From NCBI RefSeq assembly GCF_000743525.1, contig NZ_JQGK01000008.1, positions 1 to 64,000 of the forward strand: DNA of 64,000 nt, given 5' to 3'. Under the pieces are notes generated by a model. The model did not search any database, had not been told where the DNA came from, and saw only the letters and a program-made list of their open reading frames with translations. This stretch comes from Sulfurospirillum sp. SCADC. Lineage in GTDB: Bacteria > Campylobacterota > Campylobacteria > Campylobacterales > Sulfurospirillaceae. Each line of letters starts with the position of its first letter. Positions within the stretch are counted from its first letter, which is position 1. This document shows positions 26,273-58,305 of the stretch, piece after piece. A program made the translations under genes and the position numbers.

Positions 26273-26992
26273 TTAGCTTAAAAGTGCCGAAATGCTTTGT
26301 TGCATCATACTGTTTTGGTGGACTTGTGCAAGAACAGCGCTGGTGAGTTTGATCTCATCGCTCTTGATTTGCGTGATTTTTTGATCGAGAGGGGTTTCTG
26401 AAATCTGCGAATTGGCACTGCTTAAATTGGTAATCGTCGTCAAAGAATTGGTAATAGAACTGCTAGAAGCATTGATCTGATTACCTGCTGTTTGGCTCAG
26501 ACTGCTTAAATTTTCTCTAAAATTCGCAATGCCCTCTTGATTGTCCAAAGAGAGAGAACTGAGCCCTGAAACATCAAGACCATAGTTACTCGAGAGGAGA
26601 TTTTGCCCATTGTAAGTGGTTTGATTGGCGATATCTTGCATGGAGCTGCTAATCGCATCAAACTCTTCTTGAAGCATTGCTTTTTGATCGCTACTCAAGG
26701 AAGCATTGTTAGAACGAACCGCGAGATCATTTAATTGCTCTGTTCCTGCACTAATCGCTTGCAAGGAGGAGTCTGCGATCTGGTACATACTAACCGTCTC
26801 GTTGGCATTTTGAACGTTTTGGGTTAAAGAGGAGATTTGGGAAGAGAGTGCATCGGAGATGATAAGACTGGCACTGTCTTTTCCGCTAAGTTCTTTAGTC
26901 GCTGCAATCTTCTCTAATGTTGTGTCTGCATTGGTTTTCTTGTCAGAGATAAGGTTTAAAATCTGACTATTGGAACTGCTAGAAATTTTCAT
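26273..26992 (-). CDS. FlaC-like short secreted flagellin homologue
   Basis: 239 residues, about the size of FlaC of Campylobacter jejuni. It keeps the D1 helices of flagellin (TLEKIAATKELSGKDSASLIISDALSSQI and DLAVRSNNASLSSDQKAMLQEEFDAISSSMQDIANQTTYNGQNLLS) but lacks a variable central domain, and its ends are less canonical than filament flagellin. FlaC is secreted through the flagellar apparatus. Starts at ATG 26992 after GGGAG. Divergent from the pse operon, with a consensus sigma-70 promoter rather than a flagellar one. Confidence 0.75.
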   Translation of the reverse strand: MKISSSSNSQILNLISDKKTNADTTLEKIAATKELSGKDSASLIISDALSSQISSLTQNVQNANETVSMYQIADSSLQAISAGTEQLNDLAVRSNNASLSSDQKAMLQEEFDAISSSMQDIANQTTYNGQNLLSSNYGLDVSGLSSLSLDNQEGIANFRENLSSLSQTAGNQINASSSSITNSLTTITNLSSANSQISETPLDQKITQIKSDEIKLTSAVLAQVHQNSMMQQSISALLS

Positions 26993-27021
26993 CACATGCT
27001 CCCTAACTTAAAGATGCATTT

Positions 27022-27080: not shown

Positions 27081-29211
<2,131 letters not shown>

Positions 29212-29215
<4 letters not shown>

Positions 29216-29910
29216 ACATCGCCATCATCCCTGCACGTGGCGGAAGCAAGCGCATTCCTCGCAAAAACATCAAAGATTTTTGCGGAAAGCCACTGATCGC
29301 CTACAGCATCGAAGCGGCGTTTCAAAGTGGACTTTTTGAGAAGATTATTGTGAGTACCGATGATGAAGCAATCGCAACGGTTGCCAAAAGCTATGGCGCC
29401 GAGGTTCCTTTTCTGCGACCGCGTGAACTGAGTGATGACTTTACAGGCACGGGCGCGGTGGTGGAGCACGTGCTTCAAACCTTAAAAGAGCGAGGTGAAA
29501 CCTATGATTTTGCCTGCACGATTTACGCTACTGCACCGCTTTTAGAACCACGCTACCTCATCGAAGGCTTTGAAAGACTCAAAGAAAGTGACGCGGTGTA
29601 CGCCTTTTCCGTGACATCGATGCCTTTTCCGATTTGGCGTACCTTCAAAATTACCGAAATAAAACGGTGTGAAATGTTTTGGAGGGACAAATTTGCTGCG
29701 CGAAGCCAAGACTTAGAGGAAGCGTACCAAGATGCTGGGCAATTTTACTGGCATAACCTTCATAAAACCGCGCACGATGTGATGTTTGGAAGCGAGAGTA
29801 TTCCCATCGTTTTACCTCGCCATCTCGTTCAAGACATCGACACGCCCGAAGACTGGACACGCGCCGAACTCATGTACAAAGTGCTTCATGAAAACACTGA
29901 TAAGAGCTGA
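29212..29910 (+). CDS. pseF: Pseudaminic acid cytidylyltransferase PseF
   Basis: 232 residues with the CMP-sialate synthetase signature IIPARGGSKRIPRKNIKDFCGKPLI and substrate region ATAPLLEPRYL. It activates pseudaminic acid with CTP, and the PseF-type segment FYWHNLHKTAHD/FGSESIPIVLPRHLVQDIDTPEDW supports Pse rather than Neu specificity. Start ATG 29212 overlaps the pseC stop; an in-frame ATG at 29203 is less suited. Overlaps pseG by 23 bases. Confidence 0.93.
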
Positions 29911-30778
29911 TAGTTCGAGCGCCATCGGACTTGGGCACATCATGCGCGACCTTGTGCTAGCGCAAAGCTTGGAGGGCGAAGTGGTGTTTGCCTGTCAAGC
30001 ACTTCAAGGAAGCATGATAGAGCAGATTCCCTATGAAGTTCACATCCTTCAAACCAACGATGCAGACGAACTGATAGCGCTCATACACTCTTTACATGTA
30101 AACCTTTTGGTGATCGATCATTATGGCATTGACGCGCATTTTGAGCAAACCGTGAAAGAGACGACAAATGTCACCATCCTGAGTTTTGATGACACCTACC
30201 AAGCACATCACTGCGATATTTTGCTCAATCACACCATCTGCGCCGATGCCGCTCGTTACGCAAATCTTGTGCCCAAAGGATGTGAACTACGTTGTGGCAG
30301 TACGTATACGCTGATTCGTGATGAGTTTAAAGATGAGAAAAACATCGCGCGTGAAAAGATTTACGATGTGCTGATTGCGATGGGTGGAAGTGACGCAGGA
30401 AATCTTACGTTAGAGATCCTCAAAATCCTTCCTAAATCGTTACATGTAAGCATACTTTCGACCACAGCCAATGCCCACCTGCACGAGCTTCAAACCTATG
30501 TCGAGGCGTTTCCAAACATCGCTTTACATGTAAACGCAAACGAGGTCGCCAAAATCATGAATCAAAGCAAATGTGCGATTGTCACACCCAGTGGCATCGT
30601 GCAAGAGGTGCTTTTTATGGAACTGTCATTTATTGCGATTAAAGTCGCACACAATCAAGACGATATGTATCGATATTTAGAGGAGCATGACTATCCAGTT
30701 ATGCACGATTTTGAGCCTCAAATCCTCAAAACCCTCATTCACGCATGGATGCAAGGAGAGAACTTTGAAGATCGCTGA
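29888..30778 (+). CDS. pseG: UDP-2,4-diacetamido-2,4,6-trideoxy-altropyranose hydrolase PseG
   Basis: 296 residues, GT-B-like fold: RADSSSAIGLGHIMRDLVLAQ with the catalytic-region GHxxR motif, VIDHYGIDAHFEQ, IAMGGSDAGNLTLEIL and TPSGIVQEVLFM. Removes UDP before PseI condensation. I start it at ATG 29888 in line with MKTLIRADSS. It carries three exact TTACATGTAA copies within 450 bases, the densest cluster in the window. Confidence 0.93.
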   Translation: MKTLIRADSSSAIGLGHIMRDLVLAQSLEGEVVFACQALQGSMIEQIPYEVHILQTNDADELIALIHSLHVNLLVIDHYGIDAHFEQTVKETTNVTILSFDDTYQAHHCDILLNHTICADAARYANLVPKGCELRCGSTYTLIRDEFKDEKNIAREKIYDVLIAMGGSDAGNLTLEILKILPKSLHVSILSTTANAHLHELQTYVEAFPNIALHVNANEVAKIMNQSKCAIVTPSGIVQEVLFMELSFIAIKVAHNQDDMYRYLEEHDYPVMHDFEPQILKTLIHAWMQGENFEDR

Positions 30779-31808
30779 TTTTGATTTCAACACTATCAAA
30801 ACGTTTATCATCGCCGAGCTCTCTGCCAACCACAACGGTTCATTGCAAACAGCGCTTGAGACGATTAAGGCGGCTAAAAAAGCAGGGGCGGACGCGATTA
30901 AATTGCAAACCTATCGCGCCGATACGATCACGCTTGATTGCGACAGAGACGAGTTTATCATCCAAGGTGGAACGCTGTGGGACAATGCCAAACTTTACGA
31001 TTTGTACCAAAAAGCGTACACACCTTGGGAGTGGCACGAAACGCTTTTTAAAACAGCACGCGAAGAGGGGCTTATCTGTTTTTCATCTCCTTTCGATGAA
31101 ACAGCGGTCGATTTTCTACGGCCATTTGATCCACCTGCATATAAAATCGCTTCATTTGAGATCACCGATCACGCGCTGATTCGTAAATGTGCTAAAGAGC
31201 ATAAACCGATGATTATCTCCACGGGTACCGCCTATTTTGAAGAAATTGAAGAGGCAGTTGCCCTTTGCAAACAGGAAAACAATGACGAGATTATTCTGCT
31301 TCAATGCACCAGCTCTTACCCCGCACCTCTTGAGCATGCGCATCTGAAAACAATTCCTGATTTGGCAAAACGTTTTGGCGTTATCGCAGGATTGTCCGAC
31401 CACACATTGGGCATCAGCGCACCCATTGCCGCTGTAGCATTAGGCGCGCGTGTCATTGAGAAACATTTCATTCTGGAACGCTCCATCGGTGGAGCTGACG
31501 CGGCATTTTCACTCGACGTGGAGACGTTTTCTGCCATGAGCAAAGCCATTCGCGAAACGGAACTTCTTTTAGGTGACGTGCATTACGAGATGGACGCGTT
31601 TAAGCTCAAAAATCGCCGTTTCAACCGAAGCCTTTATGTGAGTGCACCCATTCGCAAAGGGGAGATTTTAACACGGGAAAACGTCAAAAGTGTGCGCCCT
31701 TGCAATGGCTTGCATCCACGTCATTTACACGAAATCCTTGGCAAAAAAGCTGCCTGCGACTTAGCATTCGGCACGCCTTTACGCCTTGAAGATGTCATCT
31801 TATTATGA
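30765..31808 (+). CDS. pseI: Pseudaminic acid synthase PseI
   Basis: 347 residues: NeuB-type TIM barrel (TFIIAELSANHNGSLQTALETIKAAKKAGADAIKLQTY) and C-terminal antifreeze-like SAF domain (PIRKGEILTRENVKSVRPCNGLHPR). Condenses the PseG product with phosphoenolpyruvate. TTG 30765 chosen as start: AAGGAG is 6 bases upstream and the TTG overlaps the end of pseG, whereas the first in-frame ATG would add 26 unrelated residues. Confidence 0.93.
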   Translation: MKIADFDFNTIKTFIIAELSANHNGSLQTALETIKAAKKAGADAIKLQTYRADTITLDCDRDEFIIQGGTLWDNAKLYDLYQKAYTPWEWHETLFKTAREEGLICFSSPFDETAVDFLRPFDPPAYKIASFEITDHALIRKCAKEHKPMIISTGTAYFEEIEEAVALCKQENNDEIILLQCTSSYPAPLEHAHLKTIPDLAKRFGVIAGLSDHTLGISAPIAAVALGARVIEKHFILERSIGGADAAFSLDVETFSAMSKAIRETELLLGDVHYEMDAFKLKNRRFNRSLYVSAPIRKGEILTRENVKSVRPCNGLHPRHLHEILGKKAACDLAFGTPLRLEDVILL

Positions 31809-31824: not shown

Positions 31825-32361
31825 ATGCTCTATTTGACTCCCTATTTTAGGCTCACACACGAAGAACACAGAGCCCTTTTGGCACTGCGCAACCAAGAAG
31901 CCATTCTTCGCTATACACCGACCCAAAAAGAAATTGCGTTTAACGACCATCTTGCATGGGTGGAAACACTGAAAAACAATGATGACACACTTTATTTAGC
32001 TCTCAAGAAAGATCAGATCATGCAAGGGGCAATCCATGCAAATGCGATTAAGAGTCACACACCCTCATGGGGACTATTTTTTAATCCAACTACCTCACCG
32101 CTTGTGACATCAGCCGTTGCACTCTTTTTTTTAGATACACTTTTTAATCAGTACCGTGCATGCCATGTTAAGTCTTTTGTGCATGTTGAAAATAGCCCTG
32201 CTCTAAAATTCAATGAACGTTTAGGATTTAAGATGAGAGATACACAACCATCCTCCTTTTGCACGATGGCATTAAGCCATGAAGTATGGCAAATGAAAAA
32301 AAATTCTAAGCTCTTTCAACCCATTCTAAAAACAGCTTCACAACTCACGATAAGGAACTAA
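31825..32361 (+). CDS. pseH: GNAT acetyltransferase, probable PseH (UDP-4-amino sugar N-acetyltransferase)
   Basis: 178 residues, with the RimJ/RimL-like layout LTHEEHRALLALRNQEAILRYT, GLFFNP, and the C-terminal VENSPALKFNERLGFKMRD typical of PseH and related nucleotide-amino-sugar acetyltransferases. It fills the only missing step between PseC and PseG in this operon. The next gene is an acyl carrier protein, so transfer of an acyl group other than acetyl is a possible alternative. Confidence 0.72.
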   Translation: MLYLTPYFRLTHEEHRALLALRNQEAILRYTPTQKEIAFNDHLAWVETLKNNDDTLYLALKKDQIMQGAIHANAIKSHTPSWGLFFNPTTSPLVTSAVALFFLDTLFNQYRACHVKSFVHVENSPALKFNERLGFKMRDTQPSSFCTMALSHEVWQMKKNSKLFQPILKTASQLTIRN

Positions 32362-32363
32362 AC

Positions 32364-32651
32364 ATGGAGAAGATTACAGACATCATCATAGCGGCACTGC
32401 AAGAGTTTAATGAAGAACTCCAAGAGCCTTCCCTTGAGCATCCAAGCCTCGATACCAAACTTTTTGGAGGCAATGGCGTACTAGATAGCCTTGCCCTTGT
32501 CTCATTTATTGCGGACATTGAAGAGAAGGTATCGGAACACTATGGCAAAAACATTGTTTTAGCAGATGAAAAAGCCATGAGCCAAAAAGTATCTCCGTTT
32601 CGAACCGTAGAAACGCTCTCTGCTTATATTGAAAAGCTTCTCAATGTCTAA
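32364..32651 (+). CDS. Acyl carrier protein in the glycosylation operon
   Basis: 95 residues of carrier-protein type with the phosphopantetheine site GVLDSLALVSF (Ser42). It is not the housekeeping fatty-acid AcpP by context: it lies between a GNAT acetyltransferase and an SDR reductase, followed by an AMP-forming ligase. Similar acp/ligase pairs occur in the C. jejuni flagellar glycosylation locus. Likely carries a small acyl or aminoacyl unit destined for a sugar. Confidence 0.82.
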   Translation: MEKITDIIIAALQEFNEELQEPSLEHPSLDTKLFGGNGVLDSLALVSFIADIEEKVSEHYGKNIVLADEKAMSQKVSPFRTVETLSAYIEKLLNV

Positions 32652-33345
32652 AATCATCATCATCACCGGCAGCCGCAAAGGTATTGGGTATGCGTTGTGT
32701 GAAGCCTATCTCAGCGAAGGGCATACCGTGATTGGATGCAGTCGTGAAGCCACAACCCTTGCGCATCCACACTACCGACATTTTATCTTGGATGTTGCGG
32801 ATGAAATGGCGGTGGTGGCAATGATTCGAAGTGTCAAAAAAGAGTTTGGTCGTATCGATGTGTTGCTCAATAACGCAGGGATTGCGAGTATGAACCATAC
32901 GCTTACAACCTCACTCTCCACACTCAATGCGATTCTTCAAACCAATATTGTCGGAACATTTCTCTTTCTTCGAGAAGTTTCCAAAGCAATGATGAAACAA
33001 AAAAAAGGGCGCATTGTCAATTATTCAACCATTGCGACAGCATTAAGGCTTGAGGGCGAAGCGATCTATGCAGCAAGTAAAGCAGCCATAGAAAACCTAA
33101 CAGAGACAACGGCTAAAGAGCTTTCTCCTTTTGGCATTACCGTCAATGCAATAGCCCCAACACCGATCGAAACCGATCTGATTAAAGCGGTGCCAAAAGA
33201 GAAGATGGCGTCCCTTCTTGCCCAACAAGCGATTGCACGATTTGGTACATTTGACGATATTAAGCATGTCATCGATTTTTTGATAGACGATAAAAGTGAT
33301 TTTATCACTGCGCAAGTTATTCATCTTGGAGGAGTACATCGCTGA
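32644..33345 (+). CDS. Short-chain dehydrogenase/reductase (FabG-like)
   Basis: 233 residues with Rossmann motif TGSRKGIGYALCEAYLSEG, NNAGIAS, and catalytic Ser and Tyr-x-x-x-Lys in NYSTIATALRLEGEAIYAASKAA. Start ATG 32644 overlaps the carrier-protein stop by 8 bases; an in-frame ATG at 32629 is possible but less likely. The tight coupling to the carrier and ligase suggests reduction of a carrier-bound keto or hydroxyacyl group. Confidence 0.85.
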   Translation: MSKIIIITGSRKGIGYALCEAYLSEGHTVIGCSREATTLAHPHYRHFILDVADEMAVVAMIRSVKKEFGRIDVLLNNAGIASMNHTLTTSLSTLNAILQTNIVGTFLFLREVSKAMMKQKKGRIVNYSTIATALRLEGEAIYAASKAAIENLTETTAKELSPFGITVNAIAPTPIETDLIKAVPKEKMASLLAQQAIARFGTFDDIKHVIDFLIDDKSDFITAQVIHLGGVHR

Positions 33346-34679
33346 TGCTTAGTAAATTAGCTCTGTTTGATCAAAAAATTGCCATAGTAGATCATGATGA
33401 TCGCTCCTACACGTACGATGATCTTATCAAACGTGCTTTGGTATATCAAAAGACGCTGCTTGCCAACATCCCTGAAGGCTCAAGCGTTGCCATTCTTTCA
33501 GACTACAACTTTGAGGCTATTGCACTTTTTAGTGCGCTTTATGAAAAAAAAGCAATCATCACCCCCATAACAAGTACCACACCCGCAGAAATAAATGAGC
33601 GAATTGCGATTGCACAATGTTTATATAGTATCGCCTATCATGGCGAATCTTTCGTTGTGACCACTCATACCAACGATGCAACACCTCATCCCATGCTTGA
33701 GAACCTTCAAAAAATAGGTGATGCAGGATTGATTCTTTTTAGCAGTGGCAGTACCGGAAAACCAAAAGCTATGGTACACAATCTTTCCCACCTTGTAGCC
33801 CATTATGAAATGAAAAAAAGTAAAAATTTAGTGATGCTTCTTTTCTTGATGTTCGACCATATCGGTGGACTCAATACCATGCTCAATATTCTCTCTATGG
33901 GCGCAACAATGGTCATACCGCATAATCGCAATCCTGAACATATCTGTGCGCTTATCGAACGTTATCATGTTGCAGTATTGCCCTCTTCGCCTACATTTTT
34001 AAACCTAATTCTGATGAGTGGAGCACACGAGCGTTACGATTTGTCTTCTCTTAGAATGATCACGTATGGTACGGAGACCATGCCAGAATCTCTGTTAAAT
34101 AAACTCAAAATCGTTTTTCCGAAAATTAAATTTTTACAGACGTTTGGCACCAGTGAAACAGGCATCGCGACAACCTCTTCGAAGGCTTCTGATTCTACGC
34201 TGATGCGCATTGAAGATACGTCGTGTGAATATAAAATCGTCAATCACACCTTGTGGCTCAAAAGCGATACGCAAATTTTAGGCTATCTTAATGCTTCCAT
34301 GGAGAGTTTTCATGAGGGCTGGTTTGACACGGGCGATCTTGTTGAAGAGAGTGAAGATGGATTTCTTCGCATCATCGGACGCGCAAAAGAGGTTATCAAT
34401 GTCGGTGGACAAAAAGTGTTGCCCAATGAGGTCGAGTCCGTCATTTTGATGATGCCCGAAGTGCAAGACTGCATGGTAAGTGCGATCTCTAATGCCATTA
34501 CAGGACAAAGTGTCGCCGTTGAAGTCGTTTTAAAAGACCCAAAAGAGGCAACATCCATTAAAAAAATGATCCGCACCTTTTGCAAATCACGACTGGATGG
34601 TTATAAAATCCCAACGCATGTGAATGTTGTAGAACAGACTCACTTTAGCGAACGCTTTAAGAAAATGAGACTTGGTTAA
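33345..34679 (+). CDS. AMP-binding acyl/aminoacyl ligase (ANL superfamily)
   Basis: 444 residues. P-loop-like LILFSSGSTGKPKAMVHN (about 126-143), FGTSETGIATTSSKASD, GWFDTGDLVEESEDGFLRIIGRAKEVINVGGQKVLPNEVE and a C-terminal domain with the catalytic KM..LG-like end. Shorter than usual acyl-CoA ligases, similar to stand-alone adenylation proteins. TGATG coupling to the reductase. It would load a carboxylic acid onto the nearby carrier protein. Confidence 0.82.
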   Translation: MLSKLALFDQKIAIVDHDDRSYTYDDLIKRALVYQKTLLANIPEGSSVAILSDYNFEAIALFSALYEKKAIITPITSTTPAEINERIAIAQCLYSIAYHGESFVVTTHTNDATPHPMLENLQKIGDAGLILFSSGSTGKPKAMVHNLSHLVAHYEMKKSKNLVMLLFLMFDHIGGLNTMLNILSMGATMVIPHNRNPEHICALIERYHVAVLPSSPTFLNLILMSGAHERYDLSSLRMITYGTETMPESLLNKLKIVFPKIKFLQTFGTSETGIATTSSKASDSTLMRIEDTSCEYKIVNHTLWLKSDTQILGYLNASMESFHEGWFDTGDLVEESEDGFLRIIGRAKEVINVGGQKVLPNEVESVILMMPEVQDCMVSAISNAITGQSVAVEVVLKDPKEATSIKKMIRTFCKSRLDGYKIPTHVNVVEQTHFSERFKKMRLG

Positions 34680-35659
34680 TGACATCGATGCATCCTAAAA
34701 TTTGTACCATTGTGGTAACCTATAATCGTTATACTCTTTTAAAAGAGTGCATCGATAGCTTACTGCATCAAACCTATCCAACAGATATTGTAGTGATAGA
34801 CAATGCTTCTACCGATGGAACGGAAGCTAATCTTATCAAAGAAGGATACACCTCTTTTGAGAATCTTTGCTATCAGAAACTTGACACGAATTTAGGTGGA
34901 GCAGGAGGATTTCATGCAGGATGCACGTATGCATCTGCGTATGAATATGATTTTATGTGGTTAATGGATGATGATGCTGAGCCAGAATACACTGCTTTGG
35001 AAAAACTTATAGAAGCCATCTCTCTTAATGCTTCCTATCCTGCATATGCGCCTTCTGTGTTTATTGGAACAAAAGAGAAACACACGCTTTCAACCTTCGG
35101 GCATAGAGGGCAATTTAACTATAAACAGACATTACCTTCTTTTCAGCGTCCTCTTTCAGTAGAAACCTTTTTAAAAAAAACTGTTGAGATTGATATGGCC
35201 TCTTTCGTAGGTATTTTGATTTCTAGCAATGCGATGAAAAAGATTGGACTTCCTAAAAAAGAGTTTTTTATCCACCATGACGATACAGAGTATAGCTTAC
35301 GCTTGGCAACTTTAGGAAAAATCCTTTTAGTCAATGAGAGTAAGATTTATCATAAAGAGAAACGTCAAAATGAGAAAATTGAGCGCCGATTTTTTGGATT
35401 TCATAAAAATCGCATTCGTTTTGAGGTATTGTGGCTAAAGTATTATGGATTAAGAAATTCTATTTATATTGCCATCCAATACAGTAAAACTCCTTTCGTG
35501 TGGCTAGATATTCTTAAACTCTATGGTACGTTATGCAAAGATATTCTGTTATACGATGATCACAAATGGCTACGTTTATGCTTCGCGACACATTCTATTT
35601 TGGATGGACTTCGTGGCAACTTTGACAATACCAAAGCCAAAAGACTGTTATATGTATGA
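34679..35659 (+). CDS. Family 2 glycosyltransferase, possibly galactofuranosyltransferase
   Basis: 326 residues with GT-A start CTIVVTYNRYTLLKECIDSLLHQTYP, ASTDGT, and the DDD motif FMWLMDDDAEPE. The NGG/WLMDDD style resembles rhamnosyl and GlfT-type transferases. The next gene encodes UDP-galactopyranose mutase and overlaps by 8 bases, so UDP-Galf as donor is a reasonable inference. Coupled to the ligase by TAATG. Confidence 0.8.
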   Translation: MTSMHPKICTIVVTYNRYTLLKECIDSLLHQTYPTDIVVIDNASTDGTEANLIKEGYTSFENLCYQKLDTNLGGAGGFHAGCTYASAYEYDFMWLMDDDAEPEYTALEKLIEAISLNASYPAYAPSVFIGTKEKHTLSTFGHRGQFNYKQTLPSFQRPLSVETFLKKTVEIDMASFVGILISSNAMKKIGLPKKEFFIHHDDTEYSLRLATLGKILLVNESKIYHKEKRQNEKIERRFFGFHKNRIRFEVLWLKYYGLRNSIYIAIQYSKTPFVWLDILKLYGTLCKDILLYDDHKWLRLCFATHSILDGLRGNFDNTKAKRLLYV

Positions 35660-36785
35660 TTATGTCATTGTAGGAGCAGGTTTTGCAGGCGCAGTCAGTG
35701 CCAATCTTTTAGCAACACATCACAACAAAAAAGTTCTCGTGATTGAAAAAAGAGTACACATCGGCGGTAACTGCTACGATGAAGTCGATGAAAACGGCAT
35801 CGTCGTGCATCGCTACGGACCGCATCTGTTTCATACTTCTTCCAAAGAGGTATGGGAATATCTTTCACGCTTTACAGAGTGGACACCTTATGAACATAAA
35901 GTCTTGGCACATATCCATGGAAAAAATGTCCCCATTCCATTTAATTTTAACACCATTGAAGCACTTTTTGAACCTACTCACGCCAAACAATTTATACAAA
36001 AACTTTCACAACATTATCCCCAAAATGCCAAAATACCCATTTTGGAGTTACAAAAAAACCCAGATGAAGATTTGCAACAGTTAAGTAATTTTATTTATGA
36101 AAATCTTTTTGTTCACTATACAGCAAAGCAGTGGGGCGTGTCTCCTCATGAGATTGACAGCGCCGTAACAGCGCGTGTACCCATTTTAATTGGGCGCGAT
36201 GATCGCTACTTTAACGATACATTCCAAGCCATACCCAAACATGGCTATACAAAGCTTTTTGAAGCACTATTATACCATCCCAACATCACCGTTGAACTCA
36301 ATAAAGATTTTTTAACCGAAGTGTGTTGGCAGGAAAAGCGTATAGGGTTTAGGAATGATTTTACATGTAAGATTATTTACACAGGCGCTGTTGATGAACT
36401 CTTTGGGTACTGTTTCGAAGCATTGCCCTACCGTAGCACCGATATGGTCTTTGAAACGATGGATCAAGCCTATTTTCAAGAGGCTGCAACGATAAATTAC
36501 CCCAATGATCATGACTATACTCGCATCACAGAATTCAAGCATATTCATCCTAACCTAAGCCCAAAAACAACCATTTTAAAAGAGTATCCCAAAGAGCATT
36601 GTAAAGAGATTACTGTTCCTTATTATCCTATTTTTAACGATAAAAATCAGGAACAATATACACAATACATGCAAAAAGCACAGCACTTCTCCAACCTTAC
36701 ACTCATAGGAAGGCTTGCGGAGTATCGTTATTATGATATGGATGACATCGTTCTTCGTGCATTAAATACTGTAGGCATCGCATGA
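35652..36785 (+). CDS. glf: UDP-galactopyranose mutase
   Basis: 377 residues. FAD-binding MYDYVIVGAGFAGAVSANLL, then VIEKRVHIGGNCYDEVDENGIVVHRYGPHLFHT and FNGAVDELFGY-like IYTGAVDELFGYCFEALPYRS, all diagnostic of Glf. Converts UDP-galactopyranose to UDP-galactofuranose. Start ATG 35652 lies inside the end of the preceding transferase gene. Suggests a furanose sugar in the glycan made by this locus. Confidence 0.94.
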   Translation: MYDYVIVGAGFAGAVSANLLATHHNKKVLVIEKRVHIGGNCYDEVDENGIVVHRYGPHLFHTSSKEVWEYLSRFTEWTPYEHKVLAHIHGKNVPIPFNFNTIEALFEPTHAKQFIQKLSQHYPQNAKIPILELQKNPDEDLQQLSNFIYENLFVHYTAKQWGVSPHEIDSAVTARVPILIGRDDRYFNDTFQAIPKHGYTKLFEALLYHPNITVELNKDFLTEVCWQEKRIGFRNDFTCKIIYTGAVDELFGYCFEALPYRSTDMVFETMDQAYFQEAATINYPNDHDYTRITEFKHIHPNLSPKTTILKEYPKEHCKEITVPYYPIFNDKNQEQYTQYMQKAQHFSNLTLIGRLAEYRYYDMDDIVLRALNTVGIA

Positions 36786-39067
36786 AGTATTTTAAGCAAG
36801 CGTTGATCGAGCAAACGTTTCATCGTTATCTTGAAAATCCAGCAATTAAGATTGTCTCTTTCGACATCTTTGACACTCTCTTTTTTCGAACATGCGGTAC
36901 GCCCTCAATGGTTTTTGAAATTATGGGAGCGCATGAAGAGGTACGCGCATGGTTTGATACGCCCTCTTCTTTTGCGCATTATCGACGCCATACGGAACGC
37001 AAGCTCAAAGCAGAGGGAAAAGAGGTCAGCCTTGCGGAAATTTACGATACTCTTCCAATTCCTTCACAGCAAAAGAGTCGTTTTTTGGAGATAGAGCTCC
37101 AAACAGAACGTGATGTTTTAGTGCTCAATCCTCAACTCGAACGATGGATTGACATGGCTTATGAAGCCGGAAAGCAGATTATTTTAATCTCCGATATGTA
37201 CCTTAGCACACAAGAAATCACATCCATTGCCCTGTCTCAGCTTAAAAACCTCCACAAAATATCTCACATCTACGTTTCGTGCGAACAGCAAAAGAGTAAA
37301 GCAACGGGAGAGCTTTTTTTACATGTAATGGATGATTTAAATATAGAGGCATCACAGCTTTTACACATTGGGGACAACCCAAATGCCGATATCTCCATAG
37401 CGAAAAGCTTTGGCATAGCAACACTGTACTATGGGTTAGAGAGCAATGAAAAAGAGGCGATGCACCATGAAGCGCTTTATCTCAAAGAAGTTTTACCCCA
37501 CGGCAATCATGTACGCACGCTGAGCCTTCTGTGCAATCCCTACGACACTGCCTTAGAGCGATTTTACTTCAGACTAGGAGCTTCTCTTTTTGCTCCGATT
37601 ATATGGGAATTGAGTCATTGGCTTTTGGCGTGTTCACACCAGTTTGGACTGGACAAGCTCTTATTTCTTATGCGAGAAGGTGCCATTTTTCAACACTATT
37701 TTCAAAAGCTCTATCCGCATATCGCAACAGATCGTGTGTATGCGTCTCGAAGATCCACCCAATTTCTCACGCTCATACCAGACGATATTGGCAGTCTAAA
37801 GCCAGATACGTTTAAAGGGCTTACGCTTAAAGATCTTTACGAAAACTTTTTTATCCCGTTTGAGACGAGCGCTCTGCACGCTTACGGCGATCTTTCCTAT
37901 GAGATGCTTTCAACCCTAAGCATAGAAGGAAAACCTCTTTTAGAGCATGTTCAAGAGGAGCTAAATGCAAACAAAAAGAGCGTCAATGATGCGTTTGAGA
38001 CACAAAAGAAGCTTTTGTGTGATTACCTTGACACGTTACATGTAAACGCTTCATCCGCCTTGATTGATTTTGGTGGAGGAGGAAGTGTTTTAAAAAATTT
38101 ACACCCTTTATTTTCCCCTAAAACAAAACCGCATACTTCGATTCTTTTTTACCAAAGTATGCGCGGTTACCAAAATTTAAATCACGAGCACACACTCTCC
38201 TTTTTACCATATAACGCCAAAACAGCTCATGCCTTAGAGTGCATCGCTCGAACACCCGATTTTATTGAGATACTGCTCAACGGCGAGTACCCAACGACCG
38301 TAGGATACACCAAAAGTTCTGCTCAAACGGAGTACTTAGCGTGCAACGATCTCTCTATGAAAACCATCCAAAATGCTTTGCATGCAGGCATTGAGAGCTT
38401 TTTTAGCCTTGCTCGCGACTATGCTCTTCCTTCCAAAACTTTTTCAAGAGAGCATTTAGCACTGATACTTTCACGCCTTATTGAGCTTCCAACGCATGAA
38501 GAAGTTAAATTTTTGGGAGCTTTGGAGTACGATGAAGGACGTGGAAGCAGTCATCGTTATACGATTATTCAACCCGAGCAGATTACACAGGTAAAAAACC
38601 AAGGAGAAGAGGCTTTCTACAAACACTTTTTAGCCAATCCCTCACACATGAAACAACACTGTATTTGGCCACAAGGTGTTCTGACAACCATCCATCAAAA
38701 CTTTCTTCTACCCTTTTATGGCACGAACACACATCCCAATCAAAAAGTCATCGACACCCTTTTAGAAAAATTGGATGCTTTAAAACCAAAAAAAATCATG
38801 ATTTACGGAGCAGGTGATCTGTTTAAAGAGCTTCTTCCTTTTTTACATGTAAGAGATATTCACATTGAAGCGGTAATAGACTCACGTGCAGAAATTCAAC
38901 CCTTTATCTCCGAAGATTTTCGTGTACTCTCCTTGGAAGAGGCGTTGCGCGACAAAAAAGAAGCTATCATTTTAATTGCCAGTGGCGTTTATGGGCAAAG
39001 CATATCGCTATTGATCAAAAAATTTGTACACGAACATACTAAAAAAATGACGATTATTTCCGTTTAA
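36782..39067 (+). CDS. Giant HAD-superfamily protein 1 with C-terminal Rossmann-like tail
   Basis: 761 residues. N-terminal HAD phosphatase-like domain (1-220) with nucleophile Asp28 in SFDIFDTL, IILISDMYLS (motif II) and LLHIGDNPNADI (motif IV). The middle (about 240-640) is a conserved but unnamed domain. The last about 95 residues begin with KKIMIYGAGDLFKELL and look like a nucleotide-binding Rossmann unit. COG5610-like proteins of this kind occur in surface-glycan loci; the substrate is unknown. Overlaps glf by 4 bases. Has three exact TTACATGTAA copies. Confidence 0.78.
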   Translation: MKYFKQALIEQTFHRYLENPAIKIVSFDIFDTLFFRTCGTPSMVFEIMGAHEEVRAWFDTPSSFAHYRRHTERKLKAEGKEVSLAEIYDTLPIPSQQKSRFLEIELQTERDVLVLNPQLERWIDMAYEAGKQIILISDMYLSTQEITSIALSQLKNLHKISHIYVSCEQQKSKATGELFLHVMDDLNIEASQLLHIGDNPNADISIAKSFGIATLYYGLESNEKEAMHHEALYLKEVLPHGNHVRTLSLLCNPYDTALERFYFRLGASLFAPIIWELSHWLLACSHQFGLDKLLFLMREGAIFQHYFQKLYPHIATDRVYASRRSTQFLTLIPDDIGSLKPDTFKGLTLKDLYENFFIPFETSALHAYGDLSYEMLSTLSIEGKPLLEHVQEELNANKKSVNDAFETQKKLLCDYLDTLHVNASSALIDFGGGGSVLKNLHPLFSPKTKPHTSILFYQSMRGYQNLNHEHTLSFLPYNAKTAHALECIARTPDFIEILLNGEYPTTVGYTKSSAQTEYLACNDLSMKTIQNALHAGIESFFSLARDYALPSKTFSREHLALILSRLIELPTHEEVKFLGALEYDEGRGSSHRYTIIQPEQITQVKNQGEEAFYKHFLANPSHMKQHCIWPQGVLTTIHQNFLLPFYGTNTHPNQKVIDTLLEKLDALKPKKIMIYGAGDLFKELLPFLHVRDIHIEAVIDSRAEIQPFISEDFRVLSLEEALRDKKEAIILIASGVYGQSISLLIKKFVHEHTKKMTIISV

Positions 39068-39082
39068 AATATTGAGGTTTCT

Positions 39083-41434
39083 ATGACAAGCTTATTAAAA
39101 AAACAGTTCACAACCTACCTATCAAATCCTAGCATTAAAATGGTTTCTTTTGATGTGTTTGATACGCTCGCTTTTCGATATTGCCCAAAACCTGTTGATC
39201 TTTTTTTAGAAATTGGGCGCCATCCAATATCTTTAAGCTATTTTGCAACGCCTGAAGCCTATCAAACGTTTCGAATTGCGGCAGAAGCCCAAGCACGTGA
39301 ACAAAAAAAAATTGGCGAAGAGGTAACACTACATGAAATCTATCAACAATTGAGGTTACCACAACACGTAGCGCAGCAACTCCTTACCCACGAAATAGAA
39401 ATGGAATATCAATATATATTTTTAAACACTGATATTGTTGAGTGGATTGATCTTGCACAAAAATGGGGGAAAGAAGTCATTTTTATATCCGATATGTATC
39501 TCTCAGAATCTCAAATTAAACACATTGTTCTGTCAAAACTACCCAAGAACACACACATAAAGCAACTCTATGTTTCCTCGGAATATAACAGCACAAAAAC
39601 ATCAGGAAATCTTTTTCAAAAAGTTTTATCTGATCACGATTTGACACCTAACGCATTATTACATATTGGAGATCACCCTTTTGCGGATGTTAAAATACCT
39701 TCTGACTTGGGGATTCAAACCTTGCATTATCTACCAGATTCTTATTTGCAAAAGGCAGTAGAACTTGAACGTGCCTATTTTAAGGCATCTGCATTGTATA
39801 ACACGCATACAAAATTTCGTATTCTCAGTGCTCTTAACAACCCTTACACGGAGGAATCGGATCGATTTTTTTATACTCTGGGAAGTTTTATTCTAGGACC
39901 ACTACTTTGGGATTTTTCGTACTGGCTTATTGATCTTCAAAAGCAAAAAGCTCTTCAGCAAATCAATTGTGTAATGCGAGAAGGACGCATTTTTCAAAAA
40001 TGTATCCATATGATTGATCCTACAATTAATGTAAATCTCCTCTATGCGTCACGAAAAGCAACATTTTTACCCTCATTTGATTTTGATGACTTCGAACAGA
40101 ATGGATTAAACTTTTTTACGTTCCGAAAAATGACCGTTCAAAGTTACTATGAACTTCTTGGTCTTACCATTAACGATCCTTTTGTTTTAGTACATAAAGA
40201 TCATATTTTTGACAATAGTACCTATTTTTCAACCAATAATCAAAAGCTCATTTTTCATATAACGCAGGAATTTAAACATAACATTGAGACGATTCGTACC
40301 AATGTCCAACAAAAGAAACAATGCTTCTTAGAGTATCTTCGCACGAATAAATTTACCTCAAACTCACTGCTTGTAGATTTTGGAGGGCAAGGGACTATTC
40401 TTAAGAACATTCTTTCAACGCTTGATCCAACAGATATAAAACCAACTATGGCACTTTTTTATATGCACCATAAAGGGTTTAAAAAAATGTTAGGAGAGCC
40501 TATCCATAGTTATCTTAGCTCAAATATTCACACAGAAACGTCACTATCCAAAATTGCTCGTAGCCCTGAATTTCTTGAAATTTTATTGAATGGTTTTTAT
40601 ACCACAACTACAGGATATACTCAAAATGCTAATGGAACAGCTAAAGCTATTACCGAGCCGTTACAACCGTGGCAAGAAAGTATGAAACCTTATTTTGATG
40701 CCTTTGATAAAGGAGTAGAAAACTTTTTTGAAACCGCACTATCGTACCAACTTCCAAAACAGCTCTTGAGCCATGATGACGCATTAAATATTTTATTACG
40801 CCTTATTGAAGTTCCTTCTTACACTGAAGCTTCTTACTTAGGATCACTATCTCATGATGAAGGTTATGGCACACCCTTTGCAGAAAATATTATCAATGAA
40901 AAACATAAAGAGACGCTTCGTGAAATAGGGCTTTTTGAATCCTATAAAAAACATATGTCAAATTTTAATTTTCAAGTTGGAAATATTCCTTGGGTGCAAG
41001 GGACTATTGCACAAATTGACGGTGATTTTTTACCCAACATAAAGGGATTTATACAAGAAAAACCAAATACCCTTGCCGTAAGAACGATTATTTCAACACT
41101 GATGGACAATGCCATTGATACGGTATGTATTTATGGTGCAGGCGAGCTTTTCGGTATGCTCTTGATTCATTTAAAGCAAAACCATATTCATATTCAACAG
41201 GTTTTTGATACACGTGCTACCTTTAAGCCATTTATATCCAATGGCCATGAAGTACATCCGCTTGATAAATCAACGATAGAAGTAGTGAGAAATCAAACAA
41301 TCATTGTAGCAACCGTTGCCTTTGCGACAGACGTAACCAATCTGCTATCGCTCTACTCAATTGAAGCATCTATCCCGTTAAACATTGTCAATTACACGGA
41401 TGGATTGGTTCGCATAGTGCCGTCCATACATTGA
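39083..41434 (+). CDS. Giant HAD-superfamily protein 2, tandem paralogue
   Basis: 783 residues, collinear with the preceding protein: Asp24 in SFDVFDTL, FISDMYLS, LLHIGDHPFADV, a matching middle domain (FLEILLNGFYTTTTGYT mirrors FIEILLNGEYPTTVGYT) and a tail starting CIYGAGELFGMLLIHL. Starts 15 bases after its paralogue. It is visibly more AT-rich, has an A9 run at 39303-39311, and has no TTACATGTAA copy, unlike its sister, suggesting different ancestry or an old divergence rather than a recent duplication. Confidence 0.78.
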   Translation: MTSLLKKQFTTYLSNPSIKMVSFDVFDTLAFRYCPKPVDLFLEIGRHPISLSYFATPEAYQTFRIAAEAQAREQKKIGEEVTLHEIYQQLRLPQHVAQQLLTHEIEMEYQYIFLNTDIVEWIDLAQKWGKEVIFISDMYLSESQIKHIVLSKLPKNTHIKQLYVSSEYNSTKTSGNLFQKVLSDHDLTPNALLHIGDHPFADVKIPSDLGIQTLHYLPDSYLQKAVELERAYFKASALYNTHTKFRILSALNNPYTEESDRFFYTLGSFILGPLLWDFSYWLIDLQKQKALQQINCVMREGRIFQKCIHMIDPTINVNLLYASRKATFLPSFDFDDFEQNGLNFFTFRKMTVQSYYELLGLTINDPFVLVHKDHIFDNSTYFSTNNQKLIFHITQEFKHNIETIRTNVQQKKQCFLEYLRTNKFTSNSLLVDFGGQGTILKNILSTLDPTDIKPTMALFYMHHKGFKKMLGEPIHSYLSSNIHTETSLSKIARSPEFLEILLNGFYTTTTGYTQNANGTAKAITEPLQPWQESMKPYFDAFDKGVENFFETALSYQLPKQLLSHDDALNILLRLIEVPSYTEASYLGSLSHDEGYGTPFAENIINEKHKETLREIGLFESYKKHMSNFNFQVGNIPWVQGTIAQIDGDFLPNIKGFIQEKPNTLAVRTIISTLMDNAIDTVCIYGAGELFGMLLIHLKQNHIHIQQVFDTRATFKPFISNGHEVHPLDKSTIEVVRNQTIIVATVAFATDVTNLLSLYSIEASIPLNIVNYTDGLVRIVPSIH

Positions 41435-41452
41435 ATGCACAAGGATCATTTC

Positions 41453-42526
41453 ATGCAAAAAAAATACGTCCTTTACGATGCGAGTACTTCTTATATGATT
41501 ATGGTGGCTTGGATTACAGCAGCATTCTATCGGTCTGAATACACTAATATTCTTTTTCTAAATACAACCTTTCTCGAAAATCCAACAGATATTCAGCAAC
41601 GTCTTCTTGATACATCCATTTTTAGTAAAGTGATTTTAATCCATGATGAAAAAGATATCCATGTGGAGAATTTAATCACCCAGGTCTGCGATACCCCTGA
41701 AGAAATAGCCTATTATCATTTTTCAAGTTACGGCTCTTTTTATTCTACGCAACTCTTTAACTTTTGTCAATCTCATGCTATTGCGATTATTCTTAACGAA
41801 GAAGGTGGAGGAACCTATACCCTTTATGAAAGTTATTATGACTTTTTTCATACATATACCAATGGGCAACTCGCATGGGTGGATTTAGACTATCTCTCAG
41901 AAATTTGGGTGTTTAATCCTGCTCTTTACGGTAGCCAATCACCGCATAAGCTTCGTGAGATCAATTTTTGGTCATTCATCAGTAGTGTTGAAAAACGCGC
42001 CCATTTTGTCGATCAACTCAATCATGTCTTTAATTACCATGATTCTTCCTTCTCTTATGATGCGATCTTATTAACCCAAAATTTTTATGCCTATAAAACA
42101 TTATCCCTCTATGAGCAACTCGATTTTTATGCGGAAATTCTTCATCATCTGAAACTCAACATTGCAGTCAAACCTCATCCTTGTGAAGCAAAAATGGACT
42201 ATACTAAAAAAGGTTTTAACGTTATAGATACCGCACCATCTATTCCTTGGGAAATAATTATGCTCAACAGATGCCTAAAATCAAATACAAATACGCTTGT
42301 TTTGATCTCTGTTTTGTCTACCGCCCTCTATACACATCGATCTTTTTTTCATCGGAGCCCATATGGTGTTGTATCGATTTCACTTTACAAAATTGCACCT
42401 GAGGCTATTCAAAAAGTTATTGGAGACAAGCGCTTCAATATCTATTATAATCTCTTTAATCCATTCGATGAATGTCATTTTCCAATAAATATAACTGACT
42501 TAAAATCGCTATTGCAAGTACCTTAG
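41453..42526 (+). CDS. Sialyltransferase-like glycosyltransferase (GT52-like)
   Basis: 357 residues. It carries the pair of motifs shared by bacterial sialyltransferase families: an acidic pair plus Gly (Glu116-Glu117-Gly118 in ILNEEGGG) and His242-Pro243 in VKPHP, followed by a Ser/Thr-rich segment (LISVLSTAL). Such enzymes use CMP-activated nonulosonic acids, which this locus makes. ATG 41453 was chosen because AAGGA is 7 bases upstream; the ATG at 41435 has none. Family assignment is from motifs only. Confidence 0.62.
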   Translation: MQKKYVLYDASTSYMIMVAWITAAFYRSEYTNILFLNTTFLENPTDIQQRLLDTSIFSKVILIHDEKDIHVENLITQVCDTPEEIAYYHFSSYGSFYSTQLFNFCQSHAIAIILNEEGGGTYTLYESYYDFFHTYTNGQLAWVDLDYLSEIWVFNPALYGSQSPHKLREINFWSFISSVEKRAHFVDQLNHVFNYHDSSFSYDAILLTQNFYAYKTLSLYEQLDFYAEILHHLKLNIAVKPHPCEAKMDYTKKGFNVIDTAPSIPWEIIMLNRCLKSNTNTLVLISVLSTALYTHRSFFHRSPYGVVSISLYKIAPEAIQKVIGDKRFNIYYNLFNPFDECHFPINITDLKSLLQVP

Positions 42527-42606: not shown

Positions 42607-43653
42607 ATGCAAACAATAGAACATATAAAACTTACGGTTTCTTCAACCATTAAAGAAGCAATGCAAGTCATTGATACGGGGGCTATGAAAATCGCTGTAG
42701 TACTTGACCCGCATGATCACTTAATTGGCATCTTAACCGATGGAGACATCAGGCGTGGCTTTCTCGCAGGCATGAACTTAAATGAAAAGATAGAATCCAT
42801 TGTTCAAAAAAGTCCAATTGTATGCCATGTCGGAGAGACAAAAGACGAAATACTCCAAAAATCATTAGGCAAACGAATTTATCACTTACCCATTTTAGAC
42901 TCCAATGAAAAAGTTGTTGGTATAGAAGATGTTGAAGAACTTTTCAAACCACATAAAAAAAGCAACAAAGTTGTATTGATGGCGGGGGGATTGGGTACAC
43001 GACTCCATCCACTTACCCAACAAACGCCAAAACCAATGCTACGAGTAGGTGATCAACCCATTTTAGAAACTATTATTAACAATTTCAAACATTATGGATT
43101 TTTTGACTTTATTATCAGTGTAAATTACAAAGCGGATGTGCTTAAAAACTATTTTGGGGATGGATCAAAATTTGGAGTATCAATCGAATATATAAATGAA
43201 ACAATGCGAATGGGCACGGCAGGTGCGTTAAGCCTCATAGAAGAAAAATTTACTGAACCTATCTTTGTTATGAATGGCGATTTACTGACCAATATTAATT
43301 TTGATCATTTGTTAAACTTTCATCTCTCAAATAACGCCATGGCAACCATGGCAGTAAGAGAACATGAATTCCAAATCCCTTATGGTGTTATACATCAAAC
43401 AAATCAAAAAATTATCTCAATCGAAGAAAAGCCTATCCAGCGTTTTTTTATTAATGCAGGGATATATTTACTCAACCCAAATGTTCTTGCGTATATTCCC
43501 AAAGAGACATTTTTTGATATGCCATCATTATTTGAAACTCTTATTCAAAACAATTATGAGCCTTTGAGTTTCCCTATACGAGAATACTGGCTTGATATAG
43601 GTCGCATGGATGAATTTGAAAAAGCACAAAATGATTACTATGACTTATTTTGA
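42607..43653 (+). CDS. ptmE: PtmE-like sugar-1-phosphate nucleotidyltransferase with CBS domains
   Basis: 348 residues: two CBS motifs (1-115, GILTDGDIRRGFLAG and LPILDSNEKVVGIEDVEELF), then a nucleotidyltransferase domain (about 120-348) with VVLMAGGLGTRLHPLTQQTPKPML and FVMNGDLLTNINF. The same fusion is found in PtmE of C. jejuni, which makes GDP-glucosamine derivatives for legionaminic acid synthesis. It follows an 80-base gap and could start its own transcript. A G6 run encodes the conserved Gly-Gly. Confidence 0.82.
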   Translation: MQTIEHIKLTVSSTIKEAMQVIDTGAMKIAVVLDPHDHLIGILTDGDIRRGFLAGMNLNEKIESIVQKSPIVCHVGETKDEILQKSLGKRIYHLPILDSNEKVVGIEDVEELFKPHKKSNKVVLMAGGLGTRLHPLTQQTPKPMLRVGDQPILETIINNFKHYGFFDFIISVNYKADVLKNYFGDGSKFGVSIEYINETMRMGTAGALSLIEEKFTEPIFVMNGDLLTNINFDHLLNFHLSNNAMATMAVREHEFQIPYGVIHQTNQKIISIEEKPIQRFFINAGIYLLNPNVLAYIPKETFFDMPSLFETLIQNNYEPLSFPIREYWLDIGRMDEFEKAQNDYYDLF

Positions 43654-44516
43654 AAGAGACACCAGTGCTAAAGCGTAAAATTAATTTTGATATTTGTACC
43701 CACTGTAACCACCGATGTACATTCTGTTCCAATAGTGATTCGCGAACTATCAAAGACCAAACATCCTTGCATGATTTTATAATTGTTATGGACAATCTAA
43801 CACGCTATATTCAAATCAGTGAACTTGGACTCTCCGCAAAAGGCGAAATTCTGATCAACAAAGATATTGAAGAGATTATCAAGGCAGCTAAAAAGATCTA
43901 TCATATCCCTTATTTATATTTTAGTACGAATGGGGCTCTTTTAACCAAAGAAAAAGCAGTACAGGTTATAGAAGCAGGGATCGACAGTATCAAATTTTCA
44001 ATTAACGCAACGGATGCAAAGAGCTATCACTCTATTCATAAAGTAGATGATTTTGATCGTGTGATTGATCATTTTAAACACTTACTCATATTAAAAAAAG
44101 AACATTACCCTTATTTAAAGCTGAGTATTTCTTCGGTCACTTTGCAAGATGAGACATCCTTAATTGAGGCATTTCAAGATATATTTGGGGAAGATTTTGT
44201 GCACATTGACCGTATCTCACGCTATGCGATCAGTTATACTCCAAAATTTGACGCTTCTTTAGCATCTCCAACAATTACAAAGCGTTGTTCTATCCCTTTT
44301 GAAGAAATTTATATTAATAGCGATGGCTCTTTAGGATTATGCTGTAAAGATTACTTTGATGAAATTAATTTTGGATCACTCAAAAAGAGTGATTTTTTAG
44401 AACTCTATCATTCAAAAATGTTTGCATCGATCAGAGCAATGCATGAGAATGGAGTGTTTAGTGATAATCACTTGTGCCAAAAATGTTTATTATTTGAAGG
44501 AAGAGACCGTGTATAA
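43650..44516 (+). CDS. Radical SAM protein with SPASM-like C-terminal cysteines (1)
   Basis: 288 residues. The radical SAM cluster motif is C19-x3-C23-x2-C26 in CNHRCTFC, followed by LGLSAKGEILINKDIEEI and FSTNGALLTKEKA. The C terminus has further cysteines (SLGLCCKDYFDE, LCQKCLLFEG) as in SPASM/twitch proteins with extra Fe-S clusters. The TTG start at 43650 overlaps the ptmE stop and has a weak ribosome site; GTG 43665 is an alternative. Substrate unknown; the setting implies modification of a nonulosonic acid or its precursor. Confidence 0.8.
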   Translation: MKETPVLKRKINFDICTHCNHRCTFCSNSDSRTIKDQTSLHDFIIVMDNLTRYIQISELGLSAKGEILINKDIEEIIKAAKKIYHIPYLYFSTNGALLTKEKAVQVIEAGIDSIKFSINATDAKSYHSIHKVDDFDRVIDHFKHLLILKKEHYPYLKLSISSVTLQDETSLIEAFQDIFGEDFVHIDRISRYAISYTPKFDASLASPTITKRCSIPFEEIYINSDGSLGLCCKDYFDEINFGSLKKSDFLELYHSKMFASIRAMHENGVFSDNHLCQKCLLFEGRDRV

Positions 44517-45225
44517 CAATCAACGCATTGTAGCAATTATCACTGCACGCGGTGGAAGCAAGCGTCTTCTTGGAAAAAACATTCTCCCATTACAGGGTAA
44601 ACCTTTAATTGCTTGGAGTATTGAGGCTGCATTGCATTCTCCTTTGATCGATGATGTCATTGTTTCTACCGATGATCCTACCATTGCACAAATAGCACGC
44701 CAGTACGGGGCACAAACCCCTTTTTTACGTCCTATAGAACTAGCATCTGATGCAGCTAAATCCATCGATGTAGTTTTACATGTACTTGATAGTTTAGAAC
44801 ATTCCAAGAAACAAAGGTATGATCACGCGATTTTACTTCAGCCCACTTCGCCATTAAGAGATACCGAGGATATAAACGGTGCCATTTGCTCTTTTTTTGA
44901 TCAAAATGCTGATTCTGTAATTGGAGTATGTGAAGCGGAGCACAATCCAATTTGGAGTAATACCCTAAATGAAGATCGAAACATGAAAAATTTTATCCCT
45001 GATCAGTATAATAACCTAAGAAGTCAAGACTTACCTACATATTATCGCATTAATGGGGCATTTTATATGGCGAAAACAGCTATCTTACAAGAGCAAAAAA
45101 CTTTTTTCATCAAAGAGAATATCTATGCTTATCTTATGTCACAGGAGCATTCCATCGATATAGATACATCGCTTGACTTCATGGTTGCAACGGCATTATT
45201 ACAACAAAAGGAAACCAAATGTTAG
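44509..45225 (+). CDS. legF: CMP-nonulosonate synthetase, probable CMP-legionaminate synthetase
   Basis: 238 residues with IVAIITARGGSKRLLGKNILPLQGKPLIAWSIEAAL and LLQPTSPLRDTEDINGAI, the NeuA/LegF/PtmB signature. It is distinct from PseF at 29.2 kb. Since the legB-C-H-I-G genes on the opposite strand lack a synthetase, this is the best candidate for the final legionaminic acid activation. GTG 44509 start with AGGAAG upstream, overlapping the radical SAM gene by 8 bases. Confidence 0.87.
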   Translation: MYNNQRIVAIITARGGSKRLLGKNILPLQGKPLIAWSIEAALHSPLIDDVIVSTDDPTIAQIARQYGAQTPFLRPIELASDAAKSIDVVLHVLDSLEHSKKQRYDHAILLQPTSPLRDTEDINGAICSFFDQNADSVIGVCEAEHNPIWSNTLNEDRNMKNFIPDQYNNLRSQDLPTYYRINGAFYMAKTAILQEQKTFFIKENIYAYLMSQEHSIDIDTSLDFMVATALLQQKETKC

Positions 45226-58145: not shown

Positions 58146-58201
58146 GATAAATCCTTTTATCTTTAGGTATTTCGCGGGCGTCCTTGCCTTTGATGAAAAC
58201 A

Positions 58202-58228
58202 AGATCGGAGTCTGACAAAAAAACTTTA
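58202..58228 (-). promoter_or_regulatory. Sigma-28 (FliA) promoter of flagellin
   Basis: On the minus strand TAAAGTTT (58221-58228), 11 bases, TCCGATCT (58202-58209), close to the flagellar consensus TAAAGTTT-N11-GCCGATAA. Confidence 0.9.
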
Positions 58229-58305
58229 ACATCACCTGCTATTTTTAAAAAGATTTTTTTTAGATAGAATACACAAAAATGTTTACATGTAAAGATGGAA
58301 AAGAA

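Follow-up and report, generated by a model that had tools for sequence, protein, structure and literature searches.

A carrier-linked PseH relative and a putative acyl-activation cassette in the pseudaminic acid operon of Sulfurospirillum sp. SCADC

The pseudaminic acid (Pse) operon of Sulfurospirillum sp. SCADC raises the question of which acyl group is placed on the sugar and from which donor it is taken. The operon lies in a 64,000-nucleotide stretch of DNA (contig NZ_JQGK01000008.1, positions 1 to 64,000, hereafter the window) and ends with four genes, at 31825-34679, for a GNAT-family acyltransferase, a carrier protein, a short-chain dehydrogenase/reductase (SDR) and an AMP ligase. Nonulosonic acids of flagella and surface glycans differ in their N-acyl groups, and genome annotation usually calls every PseH-like gene an 'acetyltransferase'. 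Here, the four genes probably form an acyl carrier protein (ACP)-dependent pathway that turns Pse synthesis from N-acetyl to another N-acyl. By sequence, the catalytic residues are intact, the cassette is conserved, and PseH is substituted by a GNAT that has lost the P-loop and kept the sugar- and pantetheine-binding residues. The gene set itself is already known from enterobacterial islands (PMC4875605) and from Aeromonas Group II islands (PMC7874193); N7-acylated Pse is already known from Acinetobacter baumannii (PMC9676051). What appears to be new is a PseH relative that seems to draw its acyl group from a carrier and not from coenzyme A (CoA).

All four open reading frames are present and close a complete pse operon at its 3' end, on the forward strand. 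The upstream genes were assigned by NCBIfam equivalog profiles, all five above the curated cut-offs: pseB, inverting UDP-GlcNAc 4,6-dehydratase (27108..28097; TIGR03589, 562 bits, cut-off 408); pseC, aminotransferase (28094..29215; TIGR03588, 486 bits, cut-off 423.5); pseF, CMP-Pse synthetase (29203..29910; TIGR03584, 332 bits, cut-off 206); pseG, UDP-sugar hydrolase (29888..30778; TIGR03590, 227.5 bits, cut-off 153.6); and pseI, pseudaminic acid synthase (30780..31808, start approximate; TIGR03586, 510.5 bits, cut-off 340). A gap of about 16 bp leads to the GNAT gene (31825..32361), which is followed after 2 bp by the carrier gene (32364..32651); the latter overlaps the SDR gene (32644..33345) by 8 bp, and the SDR and ligase (33345..34679) genes share one base. 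The SDR start was set at ATG 32644, the longer version of the open reading frame finder beginning at TTG 32629. Pfam assigned Acetyltransf_3 to the GNAT, adh_short to the SDR, and AMP-binding (PF00501) and AMP-binding_C (PF13193) to the ligase. The module is thus embedded in the pse operon, as an earlier note on this DNA had claimed, its genes abutting or overlapping directly after pseB-C-F-G-I.

The GNAT occupies the position of PseH. Its score against the PseH profile TIGR03585 was 58.6 bits, below the equivalog cut-off of 93.1, and it was the best match in a genome in which no protein exceeded that cut-off. Among 397 Campylobacterota genomes, a PseH-like match was obtained in 254 (220 above the cut-off and 34 below), and the 11 genomes in which a pse operon contains the cassette all fall among these 34, with no PseH above the cut-off (p about 5e-11, by counting, with kinship ignored). 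In the family to which the window belongs, a PseH above the cut-off occurs in 26 of 44 genomes, but in neither of the two that carry the cassette. The acyltransferase role proposed in the earlier note is supported; the view of the GNAT as an additional gene is not, as it takes PseH's place. In the established pathway, the target of PseH is the 4-amine of UDP-4-amino-AltNAc, and the acyl group is therefore expected on N7 of Pse.

Phylogeny placed 18 cassette GNATs in one clade (support 98/98), separate from 23 canonical PseH proteins (100/95), the assignment of one 'canonical' row (L091) and of some long branches being uncertain. The AlphaFold model of the window GNAT (predicted local distance difference test, pLDDT, 92) had PseH 4ri1 as its top structural match (Z 20.9, root-mean-square deviation 1.9 over 160 residues). 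The second-ranked match, tied with SpeG at Z 19.3, was FdhC, the product of which is a 3-hydroxybutanoyl-amino-sugar.

The residue roles were taken from the Helicobacter pylori PseH structure (PMC4363471), in which Arg30 and His49 bind the sugar, Asn131 binds pantetheine, the Gly103 backbone holds the CoA pyrophosphate, Leu91 and Glu126 contact the acetyl group, and Tyr138 is the general acid. Arg30, His49 and Asn131 are kept in 18/18 clade GNATs (R22, H42 and N123 in the window). The P-loop Gly103 is present in 24/24 canonical PseH proteins vs 0/18 clade GNATs (T95 in the window), and in none of 24 ACP-linked GNATs when six GNATs adjoining other dedicated carriers are added to the clade. The Lys133 position holds K or R in 16/24 canonical proteins vs 0/18 in the clade; Leu91 is replaced by Trp in all 18, Glu126 is found in 22/24 vs 2/18, and Tyr138 (22/24 canonical) has become Asn, Asp or Thr. 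With the pantetheine contacts kept and the diphosphate contacts gone, this pattern is what a change of donor from CoA to carrier-borne pantetheine would leave.

As a control, PseH-like GNATs of divergent sequence were taken from genomes that do not belong to the set whose pse operon contains the cassette. The glycine was kept in most of them; G358 has alanine, which is allowed, two rows were gapped, and two proteins (G293 and G213) have neither glycine nor alanine. The G293 gene belongs to a GNAT-ACP-ligase-SDR arrangement, a permuted, diverged cassette that the carrier profile had missed. Such a cassette, found via the GNAT signature, lies at L193:8360-11248 and adjoins an aminotransferase gene.

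These data bear on the possibility that the GNAT is a divergent PseH still using acetyl-CoA, and that the cassette serves another acylation, e.g., of another glycan sugar via the downstream GT2 and glf genes. A PseH is expected in this operon and the GNAT does match the PseH profile; most other cassette loci are without a PseH-like GNAT, and the Aeromonas glycan is capped by a separate 102 Da moiety (PMC7874193). We consider this explanation unlikely, since the equivalents of the P-loop glycine and Lys133 are gone throughout the clade and the acetyl-contact residues are altered. Members of the same clade also accompany the cassette into non-pse loci, namely L138 (a NeuB/NeuC/PtmA cluster), L142 and L151, and genome G120 has a clade GNAT beside the cassette even though its pse operon holds a canonical PseH. 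The presence of a clade GNAT thus tends to go with the carrier, not with the sugar. The grounds for rejecting an ordinary acetyl-CoA-dependent PseH as the identity of the GNAT were the profile score and the P-loop; the acceptor residues played no part in this.

The three genes that follow the GNAT recur as a unit. A ligase scan of species genomes gave 17 relatives, and 14 of these loci show the order ACP-SDR-ligase. They are spread over Campylobacterota, Spirochaetes, Gammaproteobacteria, SAR11, other Alphaproteobacteria, Bacteroidota and Opitutales. The carrier profile matched in 67/397 Campylobacterota genomes. The order and the single strand are kept in 70/70 three-gene loci (a few of which share a genome or come from two collections), and most junctions lie within about 20 bp; such recurrence is far beyond chance. 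ACP-SDR-ligase is a mobile cassette. A search of plasmids with the SDR as the query gave no match at 1e-50, and the ligase search of phages gave two matches, both distant. In pse operons, the GNAT stands directly upstream of the cassette in two genomes of the window's genus and in groups f7 and f4, which, to judge by their named loci, are probably Arcobacteraceae and Sulfurimonadaceae, respectively. Outside pse operons, the cassette occurs in other amino-sugar loci, often with a β-ketoacyl-ACP synthase III (KASIII) and a NeuD-type gene, so that its job is generic acyl supply. In Helicobacteraceae (L036, L109, L116, L121-L124), two tandem ligase genes stand behind ACP-SDR.

Each product of the cassette retains the residues expected of its role. 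In the carrier, the phosphopantetheine site D-S-L is kept: D41-S42 in 'LDSLALV' is invariant, and an 'AMSxxxSPF' motif is conserved (15 homologues). Its identification as a dedicated carrier is based on its size, on D41-S42 and on genetic linkage, a Pfam match being absent. The SDR has the complete tetrad N101, S128, Y142 and K146, of which N101, Y142 and K146 are invariant and S128 is replaced by T or A in 7/15 homologues; K12 and R34, also invariant, would fit NADPH from known SDR motifs. It scored 172.8 bits against the FabG equivalog TIGR01830 (cut-off 297.75), and its closest solved structures are for the most part 3-oxoacyl-ACP reductases (FabG), the activity predicted for it here. The putative acyl-ACP ligase belongs to the ANL family (model pLDDT 93, ANL fold with Z 35), and its P-loop (S133-K141), A8 motif and C-terminal catalytic lysine are present, with S133-K141, D331, R346 and K439/K440 conserved in 49 homologues. 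Its structural matches are spread across ANL enzymes and do not discriminate the acid that is loaded.

As the amino-acid-activating enzymes DltA and PigI are among those matches and the carrier resembles DltC weakly (17.8 bits, far below the cut-off), a DltA/DltC-like charging of the carrier with an amino acid or glycerate could be envisaged, in which aminoacyl or hydroxyacyl transfer takes place without reduction and the SDR acts on another substrate. This is very unlikely: the SDR is never apart from the carrier and ligase in the 70 loci, its nearest structures are mostly the reductases named above, and the glyceroyl-type module of Campylobacterota appears to be a different one, FkbH-KASIII-ACP.

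In the proposed pathway, the ligase would adenylate a small carboxylic acid and load it onto the phosphopantetheine arm of the carrier at Ser42, and the SDR would use NADPH to reduce a keto group while the acyl is bound to the carrier. The PseH-related GNAT, which lacks CoA-pyrophosphate binding, would move the acyl from the carrier arm to the 4-amine of UDP-4-amino-4,6-dideoxy-L-AltNAc. PseG, PseI and PseF would then yield CMP-Pse5Ac7-acyl, and Maf-type transferases could place Pse5Ac7-acyl on flagellin. We infer the order of these steps and the attachment to flagellin. The earlier note had drawn a similar line, from loading of Ser42 through reduction to acyl transfer, with an acylated nonulosonic acid other than the acetyl form as its product; comparison supports both proposals, and the lost CoA P-loop of the GNAT adds to that support. 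More broadly, and with somewhat less confidence, we favour the view that, in one GNAT subfamily, loss of the CoA-diphosphate loop made a dedicated acyl-ACP the donor in place of acetyl-CoA, and that the N-acyl group of pseudaminic acids and, in relatives, of legionaminic-type acids is determined by an exchangeable ACP-reductase-ligase cassette. If this is true, the residue signature together with the linked cassette would predict operons and genomes that make non-acetyl nonulosonic acids, and a nucleotide-sugar GNAT with a donor switch would become accessible to mutation and structure study.

Several points weigh against this pathway. The carrier has no PF00550 PP-binding match, its family profile matched nothing in Pfam or the PDB, and its similarity to AcpP is weak. 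The loss of Tyr138 in the clade could mean altered or weaker catalysis, and reduction could precede the loading of the acid. The operon contains no ketosynthase that would supply a 3-oxoacyl group. The G213 GNAT, without the P-loop glycine and with no carrier nearby, is an exception to the rule. A PseH-like GNAT with these features lies in a pse operon at L194:8836-9306.

The closest published counterpart of the locus is the Aeromonas Group II flagellar glycosylation island, pseH-orf1-orf2-orf3-luxE-luxC, described for 98 strains (PMC7874193). Its Pse locus contains pseH and genes for an ACP, a 3-oxoacyl-ACP reductase and an AMP synthetase, with the same functions and order as in the window; there luxE and luxC follow, whereas here GT2 and glf follow. 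For strain AH-3, a mass of 376.14 Da is given for the linking Pse derivative, along with an unexplained 102 Da moiety (PMC7874193). If C4H6O3 takes the place of one acetyl in Pse5Ac7Ac, the computed mass is 376.148, and C4H6O3 itself amounts to 102.03. By analogy, both the 376 Da Pse and the 102 Da moiety could be the acyl product in Aeromonas; the proposed pathway would, if true, give such unexplained masses an enzymatic explanation. The authors read their island genes as a fatty-acid or 'liposugar' component (PMC7874193), and a like reading was given for the ACP, CaiC and FabG genes of enterobacterial islands (PMC4875605). Construction of a longer, fatty-acid-like chain on the glycan would suit a FabG-like SDR, an ACP and an AMP ligase, and KASIII stands next to the cassette in several other loci. 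It is nevertheless most improbable here, as the operon contains no ketosynthase, dehydratase or enoyl reductase, and the single comparable Pse mass known, the 376 Da derivative, fits a C4 hydroxyacyl and not a lipid chain.

The best guess for the acyl group, offered tentatively and by analogy, is (R)-3-hydroxybutyryl. This group is known as the alternative to acetyl on N7 in A. baumannii, where psaABCGHF makes Pse5Ac7-[(R)-3-hydroxybutanoyl] (PMC9676051), and FdhC shows that a GNAT can place 3-hydroxybutyryl. In A. baumannii, the non-acetyl N7 group goes along with a replaced psaD/psaE (nucleotidase/acetyltransferase) pair, but the named module has no dedicated ACP, reductase or ligase (PMC9676051). 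FdhC (5ktc), the 3-hydroxybutanoyltransferase of dTDP-Fuc3N, likewise acylates a nucleotide amino sugar, but was crystallised with CoA, i.e., with a CoA donor. In Flavobacterium psychrophilum, wfpC-G are responsible for 3,5-dihydroxyhexanoyl on Qui2NAc4N; a dedicated ACP and ketoacyl-ACP reductase are proposed to supply the amino-sugar N-acyltransferase, with ketosynthases instead of a ligase and a PglD-like acyltransferase instead of a GNAT (PMC6519341). No characterised homologue of the cassette with a known acyl product was found in the literature; class E lipooligosaccharide of Campylobacter jejuni was a candidate, but the review consulted gives nothing on its acyl groups. The tetronate genes rfbKLMNO of Vibrio cholerae O1 combine an ACP and an AMP ligase with reductases to supply amino-sugar N-acylation, but the acceptor is perosamine and the reductases are of other types; we know of no GNAT of the cassette clade in that system.

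The earlier note had also drawn an analogy to Campylobacter jejuni, whose di-O-methylglyceroyl-Pse on flagellin carries the acyl group on N5 and depends on Cj1295 (PMC3068675). The likeness extends to acylated Pse on flagellin and carrier genes in a flagellar locus, and the analogy otherwise fails. The carrier-family profile gave no match in the C. jejuni genome tested; near pseB/pseC lie genes for FkbH, KASIII and small ACPs, and the ligase there has only 28 bits to that of the window. The window operon in turn has neither FkbH nor KASIII, and so differs from the C. jejuni glyceroyl-Pse module. FkbH proteins make glyceryl-ACP, and the glycerate route in C. jejuni and in three pse operons of Sulfurovaceae would thus be a separate solution. 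In C. jejuni, FkbH-KASIII-ACP adjoins pseB/pseC at L162:6292-10652 (the genome of L041) and is a plausible source of the methylated glyceroyl on its Pse. In the Sulfurovaceae operons (L154:7259-10878, L153 and L156), genes for an FkbH-domain protein, an ACP, KASIII and a GNAT lie between pseG and pseI, which suggests glyceroyl-type Pse; this GNAT is also without the P-loop glycine.

Downstream of the ligase, two co-directional genes encode a family 2 glycosyltransferase (GT2; 34679..35659, PF00535) and UDP-galactopyranose mutase (glf; 35640..36785, PF03275 GLF, 237 bits). Elsewhere in the window are a legionaminic-type pathway (LegB, LegC, NeuD, NeuB and NeuC), a Maf-like transferase (53733-56516) and flagellin (56676-58235), which make a flagellar destination of the modified sugar plausible. 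Divergent from the pse operon, a short flagellin_N-only protein is encoded at 26273-26995 on the reverse strand, with a 12/12 match to the sigma-70 consensus upstream (27051-27022). The region 36782-41434 encodes a tandem pair of proteins (761 and 783 aa) that resemble each other at the N-terminus, a HAD hydrolase domain being present in the first; a polysialyltransferase-like gene (PF07388) follows at 41435-42526. Two radical SAM/SPASM genes (43650-44516 and 45219-46247) lie within the legionaminic-type region, and the interval from the legionaminic genes to Maf contains a PhyH-family dioxygenase gene (51076-52089, reverse strand). The SAR11 locus L030, too, has a PhyH gene next to the cassette. 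At L194:2683-4549, the peptide FKSYKDVVI is repeated in several frames, by appearance a CRISPR repeat array.

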